A stretch of 64,000 bases of DNA. Source: Butyrivibrio sp. FCS014 (GTDB taxonomy: Bacteria > Bacillota > Clostridia > Lachnospirales > Lachnospiraceae). Under the pieces are notes generated by a model. The model was not told the origin of the DNA and made no database searches. It worked only from the letters and a program-made list of their open reading frames with translations. A program made the position numbers and the translations under genes. The stretch covers positions 558,001 through 622,000 of the forward strand of contig NZ_JAHA01000019.1 of the NCBI RefSeq assembly GCF_000526935.1, written 5' to 3'. Positions 60,338 through 63,891 of this stretch are shown here, piece by piece; position 1 is the first letter of the stretch; the number at the start of each line of letters is the position of its first letter.

Positions 60338-61168
60338 TTACCTCAGGATCTCATCGATGGTGGAAACCGTACTGAAGGTTCCCGAGTGAGATGAAATTAT
60401 CTCCTTCATCACCGGAAGTTCAAAGTAGCTGATGTAGCAGATAAGAGTGTTGTTCTCTCCTGCGATTGCTCCTCTGGAATCCATGATGGTGCAGGTCTTG
60501 TTCAGCTTGTTCTTGATATCGCTGATAAGACCGTCCGGATCCTGAGTGATGACGGTAACCTGCTTGATGGCTTCGAAATGGTCAGTATAGTGGTCGATGA
60601 CAGCTGTTGCCACCACATAAACCAGAAGGCTCAAAAGAGCTGCCGTAGCATCGATCACTACGAAAACCGTCATGTAGACAAGTGCGTTGAAGGCCAGAAG
60701 AACCGGTGTCATGCTGTAGTTGTGTCCGGTTTTATCCGACAGCTTTTTTACGATAATATTGGCAAGGATCTCGGAGCCGTCGATACATCCGCCGTTCCTG
60801 AGAATAAGTGACAGTCCCGCGCCCAGGATCGCACCTCCGAAGGCCACTGCCAGAAAGTGCTCCGTATTAACTTCAAAGGGGATATTCTCAAAGAAATCAA
60901 TTCCCAGGGTATAGACCAGCGACCCCACTGCTGCCTTCATGGTGAATTTCTTTCCCAGGAAAACGAACCCCGCTATGATAAAGGGCAGAAATACCGCAAT
61001 GATGCAAAAGGAAAGCTGGAATCCGGTGAGCTTGCTTATTATGATGGCAACGCCGGCAGTTCCGTAGTCTATGGCATCATTGGGAAGAAGTATGAGGGCG
61101 ACGGAAAAGCTGGCCATCACCGCTCCAAGAATAATAAAGAAATAAGACAGTATTCCCTTTCTTTTCAT
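60338..61168 (-). CDS. YitT-family membrane protein (DUF161/DUF2179)
   Basis: Membrane protein of unknown function, 276 residues. About five or six TM helices (LSYFFIILGAVMASFSVALIL onward) contain the family motif NGGCIDGSEILA. The C-terminal DUF2179 domain (about 200-276) includes VITQDPDGLISDI and GENNTLICYIS. No clear operon partner; it is divergent from the LexA-box gene. Confidence 0.88.
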   Translation of the reverse strand: MKRKGILSYFFIILGAVMASFSVALILLPNDAIDYGTAGVAIIISKLTGFQLSFCIIAVFLPFIIAGFVFLGKKFTMKAAVGSLVYTLGIDFFENIPFEVNTEHFLAVAFGGAILGAGLSLILRNGGCIDGSEILANIIVKKLSDKTGHNYSMTPVLLAFNALVYMTVFVVIDATAALLSLLVYVVATAVIDHYTDHFEAIKQVTVITQDPDGLISDIKNKLNKTCTIMDSRGAIAGENNTLICYISYFELPVMKEIISSHSGTFSTVSTIDEILR

Positions 61169-61294
61169 ACCTTATGCACCGCCTTGTACTTAGATTTTAA
61201 TTAGATTAAAACGCACTTCCATTTTATCACATTTGTCCCGTTTTCATGAGCGGAATGAGCGCGGATCCCGGAATGGGCTGCAAAAATGGTGAAA

Positions 61295-61457
61295 GTAATA
61301 CCAAACCCGTTATTATAGACTGTTTGGTATTACAAAAATAATACCAAACGCGGATATATAAACCTATGGTATTACTTTTTGACTAAATAGGGGTTTAGGA
61401 TAGCTCTTTTGCTACAAAATGTAATACCAATCCCCGCTATATGAGTGGATGGTATTA
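61295..61457. repeat. Array of three inverted repeats TAATACCA-N20/21-TGGTATTA
   Basis: Unit A: arms 61296-61303 and 61325-61332, stem extendable to 12 bp (61295-61306 with 61322-61333). Unit B: 61339-61346 and 61367-61374. Unit C: 61422-61429 and 61450-61457. B is followed by C then TTTTT and C by TTTT on the plus strand. Inner sequences share features such as CGCGGATATATA and CCGCTATATGA. Confidence 0.85.
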
Positions 61458-61478
61458 TTTTGGATGTTATGGGAACTT

Positions 61479-61644: not shown

Positions 61645-61673
61645 TTTACATTCCCGAACATTTGTTCTACAAT
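61645..61673 (+). promoter_or_regulatory. SOS-type promoter: LexA box between -35 and -10
   Basis: TTTACA (61645-61650), exactly 17 nt, TACAAT (61668-61673). The spacer contains CGAACATTTGTTCT (61655-61668), one base from the Firmicutes LexA consensus CGAAC-N4-GTTCG. LexA bound here would block polymerase directly. Confidence 0.75.
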
Positions 61674-61729
61674 TATCTTGCAAGGATATCCTCCAGACCG
61701 AATGGCCCAGCCCGGTCCCGGACCTTGAA

Positions 61730-62044
61730 ATGGATTTATGTGTAACGAAGGTAACGCCTATGGGTAAAGTGATAGATAATGTAGATGTGATATGTCAGCA
61801 CAAGTCTGACGGGGAGATCATCCCGCTGCGGTTCAGGCTTATGAATGAAGACGGACTATATGAGACCTATACAATCAAGGGATACCGGCAGATCATGCGC
61901 AAGGACCTGTACACGACCCCGGACGGGCTCACTGTGTGCAGCAACGACAACGTGTATGAATGCCGGGTCATGACCCTTGAGATGTACAGAACCGTAAGGC
62001 TCTACTTTAACAGAACAAGCTGCCACTGGAGGATAGCAATCTGA
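61730..62044 (+). CDS. Small protein of unknown function under LexA-type control (104 residues)
   Basis: No family recognised with certainty. A compact, mostly beta soluble protein is suggested by alternating polar/hydrophobic stretches (VDVICQHKSDGEIIPLRFRL, YETYTIKGYRQI, VYECRVMTLEMYRTVRLYF). Several Cys but no metal motif, no signal peptide. The ATG at 61730 or the in-frame ATG at 61760 (AAGG upstream) may be the start. The promoter 60 nt upstream carries a LexA box, so induction by DNA damage is inferred. The stem of its terminator lies within the last codons. Confidence 0.7.
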   Translation: MDLCVTKVTPMGKVIDNVDVICQHKSDGEIIPLRFRLMNEDGLYETYTIKGYRQIMRKDLYTTPDGLTVCSNDNVYECRVMTLEMYRTVRLYFNRTSCHWRIAI

Positions 62045-62065
62045 TCCCCGCCGTGGCAGCTTTTT
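62027..62065 (+). terminator. Terminator of the LexA-box gene, overlapping its last codons
   Basis: AAGCTGCCAC (62027-62036) pairs with GTGGCAGCTT (62053-62062), followed by TTT. The left arm lies inside the coding region. Confidence 0.75.
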
Positions 62066-62131
62066 CATTCAAATTCGCATTATTAAATTCCGCCGTGACA
62101 GCTTTTTCATCCAAATTCGCATTATTCCGGT
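62048..62131. repeat. 42-bp tandem repeat after the LexA-box gene
   Basis: Two copies (from 62048 and 62090) of CCGCCGTGGCAGCTTTTTCA followed by TCAAATTCGCATTATT, with a few changes. The repeat duplicates the right arm and T run of the terminator. Confidence 0.8.
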
Positions 62132-62157: not shown

Positions 62158-63891
62158 TTACAGTGTTCCCAGCTGCATGCGGTAGTACTTCTCGTAGATG
62201 CCACCCTGCTTTATGAGTTCCTTGTGGGTGCCCCTCTCCCGGATACCGTCACCGTCAAGGACGATGATCTCGTCGGCGCCAAGGATCGTGGACAGGCGGT
62301 GGGCGATGGTGATGGTGGTACGCCCCACAGCCAGCTTATCCAGGCTCTCCTGGATATATCTCTCGGACTCGTTGTCCAGCGCGCTGGTGGCCTCATCCAG
62401 TATCAGTATCGGCGGGTTCTTGAGGAAGATCCTGGCAATGGCAATCCTCTGCTTCTGGCCGCCGGAGAGCCTTGCTCCCCTCTCTCCCACCTGGGTATCG
62501 AAGCCGTCGGGGAGACTTTCTATAAACTCCAGGATATCCGCACTCCTGGCTGCCTCGATGATCTCCTCCATGGTGGCATCAAGCCTTCCGTAGGCGATAT
62601 TCTCTTTTACCGTGCCGTTAAAAAGATATACATCCTGCTGCACGATACCTATAAAGGAGCGCAGGGACTTCTGAGTCACAGTCCTTATGTCGGTGCCGTC
62701 GATAAGGACCCGGCCGCCGGTAACATCGTAGAACCTGGGAAGGAGGGAACACAGCGTAGTCTTTCCGCCGCCGGAAGGTCCGACGATGGCCACGGATTTA
62801 CCCGCCTCCACGTGAAGATCTATGTGATTTAAAACCGTCTCCTCTTTTTCATAGGAGAAGGAAACATCCTCGTAATCGATAACGCCCTTGACGTCCTTAA
62901 GCTCTCCGGCATCGGGATCATCAACGATCTCGGGCATGGTGTCCATGACCTCGGAGAATCTCTCAAAGCCCGCAAGGCCCTTCTGGAGCTGCTCAGTGAA
63001 CTCCACCAGAACGTGCACGGGATTGATGAAGATGCTGATGTACAGCGCATAGATGGCAAGGTCCTCAACGGTAAGAGTTCCCTTGGCGATGAAGAAGCCT
63101 CCCGCCACCAGGACCGCAATATACATCAGTCCCTCGAAGAAATTGTTCCCAGAGAAGAAAAGAGCCATCTGCCTGTAGTTTGCTTTCTTGGAATCAAGGA
63201 AGGCTATGTTTGATCTGTCGAACTTCTCCTGCTCGATGTCCTCACCGGTGAAGGACTTCACAACCCTGATTCCTCCAAGGGTATCCTGAAGGGACGAGTT
63301 GATGCCCGCAATCTTCTTCCTGTTGTCCGCAAAGGTCGCTCTCATGCGGGTATTCTGGCTAACCGAGAATATCGCCATAAATACCACCACAACCACAAGG
63401 CACAGGGTCATGGGCACATTGATGCGCATAAGCAGAATGAAGGATCCGATGATCTTGATAACTGAGATGAAGATATTCTCAGGGCCGTGGTGGGCAAGCT
63501 CGGAGATATCAAACAGATCCGATATCAGCTTACTCATCATCTCTCCGGTGTTATGGGTATCATAGTAGGAAAAAGAAAATGCTTCGAACCGCTCAAACAG
63601 CTCCCGGCGCATGGTGGATTCCATCCGTGCTCCCATCATGTGTCCCTGGTAAGCCACGTAGTATCTGCAAAGGGATCTTACAAGATACATGGCAAGCAAA
63701 AGAGCCGCGATCAGCCCGAGTCTTTTTAAGATCAGCTCCGGACTCTCAAGAAAAAGTGTTTCCCGAAGACGACGCAGGAACTGCGGAAATGCCAGGTCGA
63801 TCACCGACAGCACCGTAGCACACAAAAGGTCTAAGAGAAACACTCCTATATATGGTCTGTAATATGGAATAAACTTCTTTATAAGCTTCAT
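62158..63891 (-). CDS. ABC transporter, fused membrane and ATPase domains (exporter type)
   Basis: Half-transporter of the multidrug/lipid exporter class, 577 residues. Six TM helices in residues 1-310, then the ATPase. Walker A is GPSGGGKTTL, the Q-loop lies in FIGIVQQDVYLF, the signature is LSGGQKQRIAIAR, Walker B ILILDEATSALD, and the H-loop IAHRLST. It acts as a homodimer, or as a heterodimer with a second half-transporter encoded outside the window. Substrate unknown. No strong ribosome binding site was checked beyond the ATG at 63891. Confidence 0.93.
   Translation of the reverse strand: MKLIKKFIPYYRPYIGVFLLDLLCATVLSVIDLAFPQFLRRLRETLFLESPELILKRLGLIAALLLAMYLVRSLCRYYVAYQGHMMGARMESTMRRELFERFEAFSFSYYDTHNTGEMMSKLISDLFDISELAHHGPENIFISVIKIIGSFILLMRINVPMTLCLVVVVVFMAIFSVSQNTRMRATFADNRKKIAGINSSLQDTLGGIRVVKSFTGEDIEQEKFDRSNIAFLDSKKANYRQMALFFSGNNFFEGLMYIAVLVAGGFFIAKGTLTVEDLAIYALYISIFINPVHVLVEFTEQLQKGLAGFERFSEVMDTMPEIVDDPDAGELKDVKGVIDYEDVSFSYEKEETVLNHIDLHVEAGKSVAIVGPSGGGKTTLCSLLPRFYDVTGGRVLIDGTDIRTVTQKSLRSFIGIVQQDVYLFNGTVKENIAYGRLDATMEEIIEAARSADILEFIESLPDGFDTQVGERGARLSGGQKQRIAIARIFLKNPPILILDEATSALDNESERYIQESLDKLAVGRTTITIAHRLSTILGADEIIVLDGDGIRERGTHKELIKQGGIYEKYYRMQLGTL

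Follow-up and report, generated by a model that had tools for sequence, protein, structure and literature searches.

The one-gene unit at positions 61645 to 62065 of the window (the whole 64,000-nucleotide stretch of Butyrivibrio sp. FCS014 DNA analysed here, C19:558001-622000 of the 4.09 Mb genome G000) encodes a member of an unannotated clostridial protein family, the members of which mostly lie beside a Y-family polymerase gene or under a LexA box of their own. It is probable that the product of this gene is an accessory subunit for Y-family polymerases, small and all-beta, and that it represents a divergent form of ImuB-C in Clostridia, expressed from its own LexA-repressed promoter. Among the functions put forward in the original prediction, which was made from the letters of the window, a polymerase accessory protein fits best, based on the members beside dinB or umuC (90 of 226), the fusions to a YolD arm, and the profile link to ImuB-C.

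The promoter, on the forward strand as is the whole unit, has a -35 box TTTACA (61645-61650), the same hexamer being present in L002, L003, and L091, and a -10 box TACAAT (61668-61673) at a spacing of 17 bases. The near-consensus LexA (SOS) box that had been predicted between them is present in the promoter spacer (CGAACATTTGTTCT, 61655-61668) and is conserved in the family. This is the single occurrence of CGAACN4GTTC in the window; shuffled windows have a mean of 0.25, with one or more in 20 of 100 shuffles, and a window-wide promoter scan was at chance level, with two found and 2.7 expected. The box and promoter alone are therefore weak evidence, and they are strong evidence because they are conserved in relatives: the alignments of the window with L002 (61644-62065) and L003 (61644-62071) span promoter to terminator and nearly coincide with the interval named originally. 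The closest named relatives by the family gene are Butyrivibrio.

The encoded protein was originally given 104 residues, however the ATG from which these are counted (61730) is AAG in both L002 and L003. The ATG at 61760 is conserved, has a gaagg Shine-Dalgarno sequence just upstream, and opens a frame that runs to 62044 and encodes 94 amino acids. From this ATG, there are 18 and 14 synonymous differences and no nonsynonymous differences in the comparisons with L002 and L003, respectively; this is therefore a real and strongly constrained gene, under strong purifying selection, and the frame is conserved in these two relatives without a single amino acid change.

An intrinsic terminator (62017-62062), also anticipated, has a 10 bp stem followed by a T run. 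Its 5′ arm AAGCTGCCAC (62017-62026) is within the last codons of the gene, its 3′ arm GTGGCAGCTT is at 62053-62062, and both arms are kept in L002 and L003. The fold has an energy of -26.7 kcal/mol (z -5.5) and was equalled in none of 200 shuffles; a simple terminator scan of the window, restricted to loops of 3-8, found no terminator. Both neighbouring frames (60338-61168 and 62158-63891) run on the opposite strand, making this a one-gene unit that stands alone, as had been proposed. The terminator 3′ arm and tail are duplicated within 62048-62126, as two 37 nt copies that are 95 % identical and 42 bases apart from start to start, and three diverged AT-rich repeat copies (AATAATACCAAAC...GGTATTAT) are present upstream of the unit (61292-61461). 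A mobile cassette was considered on the grounds that the intergenic alignment of the window, L002, and L003 is limited to the unit, yet L002 shares the flanking genes further out. This indicates a unit conserved within a drifting region and is not evidence of transposition.

In the window genome, the LexA DNA-binding domain is matched once (E 1.6e-23); upstream of recA there is an exact box (GAACATCCGTTC) and upstream of lexA a one-mismatch box (GAACATATTTTC). A GAACN4GTTC box that overlaps the promoter, its conservation in orthologues, and these recA and lexA boxes would place the gene in the LexA (SOS) regulon. Exact GAACN4GTTC is present at 31 sites genome-wide, 26 of which were read; by a mechanical count, 20 of these 26 are inside an open frame of at least 60 aa on some strand. 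The genome's own dinB (C19:401203 region) and umuC (C5:35159 region) have no box, up to one mismatch, within 400 bp upstream, and an arm-only YolD frame lies behind umuC. The window gene is not adjacent to a polymerase gene, and this, together with the lack of a near box at dinB and umuC, counts against the polymerase reading, as co-regulation with them is not apparent in this genome.

The original view that the protein could not be placed holds, in that it matches no family in Pfam (E<=10) or NCBIfam. For 96 diverse members there is no credible Pfam family among the matches listed (best E 0.0043, in one member), and the single window protein has E>=0.13 at best against PHROGs. At E<=0.001, the family is present in 32 of 299 genomes in a family-level sample (profile A1), 105 of 392 in an order sample and 79 of 391 in a class sample (both profile A2), and 33 of 249 in a phylum sample (profile A4); these four samples overlap. 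Scans of viral contigs with profiles A1 and A3 identified no relative. A phage record and a plasmid record each contain a single copy, but regulation of a mobile element, another of the functions suggested originally, is not supported as a function.

The phage copy (PV036455.1, a Lachnospiraceae phage; L201 7998-8279) is oriented opposite to most neighbouring genes and has degenerate LexA-like sites only. Some Butyrivibrio genomes carry multiple copies at different loci (L005, L009, and L012; L007, L011, and L013). Genomes G423 and G632 have four family matches each, one of them partial in each, and two copies are 5.5 kb apart in G423:C8. The family genes in L018 and L019 are shortened. One order-sample genome (G311) has six matches, three of which (L228, L229, and L235) have a site of the form GAATGTAYGTTTG at the LexA-box position, with similar sites in L232, L236, and L253; the sequences suggest that this is a drifted LexA motif.

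In a census of genomic context, 226 distinct members were classified by script, drawn from matches in close relatives and the family, order, and class samples, plus the phage and plasmid copies. These are the members left from 249 after removal of 23 identical DNA copies; near-identical relatives remain. The census leaves out nine partial or marginal matches (G632:C2:169743, G625:C83, G423:C1, G311:C26, G489, G955, G716, G846, and G899), matches below 20 bits, and L001, L020-L059, and L186-L200, which are shorter duplicates or come from other searches. Members were called linked when a Y-family polymerase gene lay no more than 700 bp away in the same orientation, and an own box was one within 250 bp upstream, a classification limited by contig ends and 1.5 kb flanks.

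A Y-family polymerase gene, dinB in 86 cases and umuC in four, directly adjoins 90 of the 226 members: 75 are just after dinB, 11 just before dinB, and four after umuC. The original prediction proposed to see whether homologues neighbour umuC/dinB-type genes; these 90 do, and three more are in longer umuC operons. The other 136 members have an exact box (87), a one-mismatch box (25), or neither (24). In upstream stretches (262 bp) of other non-polymerase ORFs at the same loci, an exact box is present in 12 of 728 and a one-mismatch box in 56 of 728; shuffled stretches have six and 70 of 1130, respectively, and when polymerase genes are included the control has an exact box in 50 of 808. From the 56 of 728, about ten one-mismatch boxes would be expected by chance among the 136, therefore these are weak evidence singly. 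A TATAAT-like hexamer is just 3′ of the exact box in 67 of the 87 unlinked members.

Of the 79 members directly after a polymerase gene, 77 lack an own box even with one mismatch allowed, against 25 of 147 for all other members (Fisher p 1.8e-35, which overstates the difference because members come from related genomes). The box is instead upstream of the polymerase gene: 59 of the 64 such loci with enough flank, 15 of the 79 being without it, have a box within 400 bp (43 exact and 16 one-mismatch), against 88 of 687 for 405 bp stretches of other ORFs (15 exact and 73 one-mismatch). An own box is present in ten of the 11 members before dinB (two exact and eight one-mismatch). In a later check of 19 phylum-sample loci, 18 of them new, 18 fit this pattern: 15 are after dinB, all with a box before dinB (nine exact and six one-mismatch), two are before dinB with an own exact box, and one is alone with an exact box. 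The remaining locus, L338, fits neither arrangement. Across the family, an own box and a polymerase operon are thus alternatives. A first survey of neighbours, in which non-polymerase neighbours were clustered without annotation for first-round loci only, had pointed to no conserved neighbour; the polymerase link emerged once distant members were included.

Some of the 24 unlinked members without a box have a recognizable context. Three (L119, L120, and L122) are in operons of umuC, a YolD arm, and SRAP. In L004, L019, L110, and L112, the preceding gene is small, HAD-like, and itself boxed (two exact boxes and two with one mismatch); in L018, the HAD-like gene that precedes has no box. The remaining 16 fit neither the SRAP operon nor the HAD-like context. 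Among these, L293 and L298 are convergent to dinB, sites resembling GAATGTNYGTTT are present in L228, L229, L232, L235, and L236, and the genes of L014 and L123 are partial.

At least 24 changes are required to place the four arrangement labels on a 105-row tree, with at least ten forced changes for the dinB-linked and at least 16 for the solo-with-box arrangement on the starred branches. By a supported split (99/87), 37 rows, mostly from Lachnospiraceae, form a clade apart from 68 rows that include all 39 dinB-linked ones. The 37-row clade has 31 rows that are solo with a box, three linked to umuC, and three solo without a box; the window gene is within a 12-row clade (100/99) of eight solo rows with a box, three linked to umuC, and one other.

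In two of the 226 members (L104 and L105), both directly behind umuC, a YolD N-terminal arm (MPRADRASQFLPFAALKGFEEALRE) and the family domain form one in-frame fusion, and in L105 the fusion has an aggagg Shine-Dalgarno sequence. Plasmid pCY186 of Butyrivibrio proteoclasticus has one-mismatch boxes followed by a HAD-like gene, umuC, YolD, and the family gene; YolD is over the cut-off here, and the HAD-like gene reaches a Pfam E of 0.095 only. The order umuC, YolD, family gene is also present in Butyrivibrio MC2021 (L017), with YolD below the cut-off (E 3e-5). In L120 (1-1782), the operon is umuC, an arm-only YolD, SRAP (PF02586, E 2.6e-35), and the family gene, possibly a four-part mutasome operon; L119 and L122 are assigned to this type from their arm motif and from a SRAP frame that is nearly identical. 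The YolD arm has been modelled as inserted into the polymerase, and YolD variants are described that are arm-only or have the arm joined to an unrelated domain, as in a fusion from Cohnella (PMC12926913). Based on the umuC operons and the YolD-arm fusion, a UmuC-type polymerase is the likeliest partner in the branch of the window gene.

The relation to ImuB-C, the C-terminal domain of ImuB that also exists as a stand-alone protein, represented by DUF6504 (PF20114), comes from profile comparison. Aligned over the whole domain by hhalign with 24 DUF6504 proteins (A5), the family alignment A4 scored 38.2 (93.7 %, E 1.9e-7) and the dinB-linked alignment A6 scored 44.6 (95.3 %, E 2.1e-8); the best scores in 60 column-permuted controls were 13.7 and 13.9, and reversed controls scored 8.6-10.3. 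The Lachnospiraceae-weighted alignment A2 (8.8 %) and A1 (5.2 %) show no link to DUF6504 alone. As A6 matches A2 at 99.4 %, the link passes through the dinB-linked branch, which reads like DUF6504/ImuB-C, with 'KPI' at the start, G..P..F, and 'YEL.YE...W.LYK' at the end. With 96 members searched at E<=1, the Pfam DUF6504 model is absent among the best 25 of 50 families, and on that count is present in at most one member, at an E of about 0.11 or worse. The family is therefore considered a relative of ImuB-C and not a member.

In the class sample, DUF6504 is over the cut-off in none of 391 genomes, with one broken match below it, and the family is present in 79; in the phylum sample, DUF6504 is present in 72 of 249 at E<=0.01 (60 over the cut-off) and the family in 33, with two genomes in common, one of them via a DUF6504 match below the cut-off, where approximately 9.5 would be expected if independent. 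From this distribution, the family looks like the clostridial counterpart of ImuB-C. Likenesses include size (stand-alone DUF6504 frames are approximately 80-110 aa), a beta-rich nature, the C-terminal Trp (W90 is invariant in 96 rows of the family), the closing motif (YELYYE...W.LYKI against YELKYE...W.LYK in the comparison with DUF6504), the reported linkage to Y-family polymerases, and the profile-profile match. Unlike DUF6504, the family has a nearly invariant Cys (C68) missing from the DUF6504 alignment, has an extra TTPDG-type loop in its Lachnospiraceae branch, and is often solitary under its own box. Of the two or more strongly conserved positive residues sought as an ImuB-C trait, one (R26) reaches 90 % or more in the 39 A2 rows, and none does in the 96 rows.

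The structure prediction called for originally was made with AlphaFold2 on A1 (12 rows, the window protein and close relatives), and gives an all-beta model with seven strands (pLDDT 90.4, pTM 0.80). ImuB-C is reported to be a beta-barrel without close relatives in the PDB (PMC12926913). The model is consistent with this and, by analogy with ImuB-C, the family protein is probably a beta-barrel. There is no convincing match for it in the PDB by Foldseek (best E 0.21) or VIA-align (best Z 4.4, over 52 residues), so that no fold is assigned, and this does not make the fold new. In BFVD there is one match at E<=0.001, an uncharacterised siphovirus protein (A0A8S5PG70; E 3.1e-6, TM 0.68/0.64). A search of the profile against PDB sequences gave an adhesin (best E 0.024, 31 positions), which was judged to be chance.

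In the SOS response, DNA damage activates RecA and LexA is cleaved. From the position and conservation of the box, LexA bound in the promoter spacer would block transcription of the window gene until such cleavage, after which the one-gene unit would be transcribed to its terminator. The operons and the fusion suggest that the protein would then dock in trans on a Y-family polymerase, in this branch most likely of UmuC type and, by analogy with UmuD′, YolD, and ImuB-C, it may complete or license a mutagenic polymerase complex with RecA. A broader scheme can be offered tentatively, and is doubtful as it stands: one exchangeable ImuB-C-like subunit would serve both DinB- and UmuC-type polymerases in Clostridia, its supply in trans would make translesion synthesis damage-inducible in the window genome, and the YolD arm and the family protein would be two halves of a split small subunit.

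Known systems provide several parallels. YolD/YqjX (PF08863), the proposed Gram-positive analogue of UmuD, is likewise a small partner of UmuC-type polymerases and is reported either beside the polymerase gene or separately, under its own LexA box (PMC6511836), however the window protein has neither a YolD match nor the arm motif, the arm is present in two of the 226 members, and a separate YolD gene adjoins the family gene in one operon (L017 and L202). The family protein would work like UmuD′ of Escherichia coli Pol V, as a small, damage-induced Y-family polymerase subunit, although Pfam shows no sequence relation between them. A stand-alone ImuB-C of 80 residues under SOS control is described in the imuY-imuB-C-dnaE2 cassette of Deinococcus (PMC8072749); there, the gene shares its operon with lexA, dnaE2, and the gene of an inactive Y-family protein, whereas the window gene is alone.

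Stand-alone ImuB-C beside polymerases is already known (PMC3765255, PMC6511836, PMC8072749). Coupling with YqjH polymerases, mostly in Clostridia, is mentioned in one of these reports, therefore the dinB-linked members may be partly known (PMC6511836). The stand-alone SOS branch in Lachnospiraceae, its relation to ImuB-C, and the YolD-arm fusion were not found in the literature searched, supplements excluded. These results assign a likely function to a family without annotation that is distributed across Clostridia, a class with many gut and rumen bacteria, and make it testable what small subunit takes the place of UmuD in these anaerobes. If the switch acts on a separate subunit and not on the polymerase, induced mutagenesis would be controlled differently from that in E. 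coli.

The effect on mutagenesis could be of either sign, licensing or restraint, as far as sequence can indicate. A negative regulator that restrains a Y-family polymerase after damage would fit the genomic evidence already given, its restraint could be graded through separate LexA control in trans, and a complex of UmuD and RecA is reported to lower the mutagenic activity of DinB (PMC6511836). Nevertheless, dinB operons in which the genes overlap or adjoin, and the fusion to the YolD arm, look like standing subunits, and restraint is considered unlikely. It is distinctly improbable that the protein is instead an SOS-induced recogniser of DNA damage that guides several repair proteins and not polymerases specifically. 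A DNA-binding role was proposed for ImuB-C by Aravind and colleagues, and genes for Ku, ligase, SRAP, and photolyase also adjoin those of ImuB-C proteins (PMC3765255); in the family, the branch of the window gene is largely solo with a box (31 of 37 rows), and one checked operon (L120) includes SRAP. Against this, the partner is a Y-family polymerase in the 90 linked members, and the YolD-arm fusion points to docking on the polymerase. Other neighbours, clustered for the first-round loci, may nonetheless include recurrent repair genes.

The yneA-type genes are small, stand-alone, and SOS-boxed, as is the window gene, but a cell-division inhibitor, suggested originally, or another SOS effector unrelated to polymerases is very hard to credit given that the model is all-beta, that no membrane segment was seen by eye, that Pfam and NCBIfam have no match, that relatives are linked to polymerases, and that there is a better candidate elsewhere in the genome. 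That candidate, at G000:C3:505419 (L051 1502), is a 140 aa frame 29 bp after an exact LexA box (GAACAACTGTTC); it has a membrane-like N-terminal stretch, is approximately 5.5 kb from lexA, and may be the division inhibitor of the window genome. An exact LexA box also precedes a small HAD-like gene at G000:C19:482944 (L354 1245), relatives of which open the pCY186 umuC operon and lie ahead of the family gene in L004, L018, L019, L110, and L112; this looks like a further unrecognised SOS gene.
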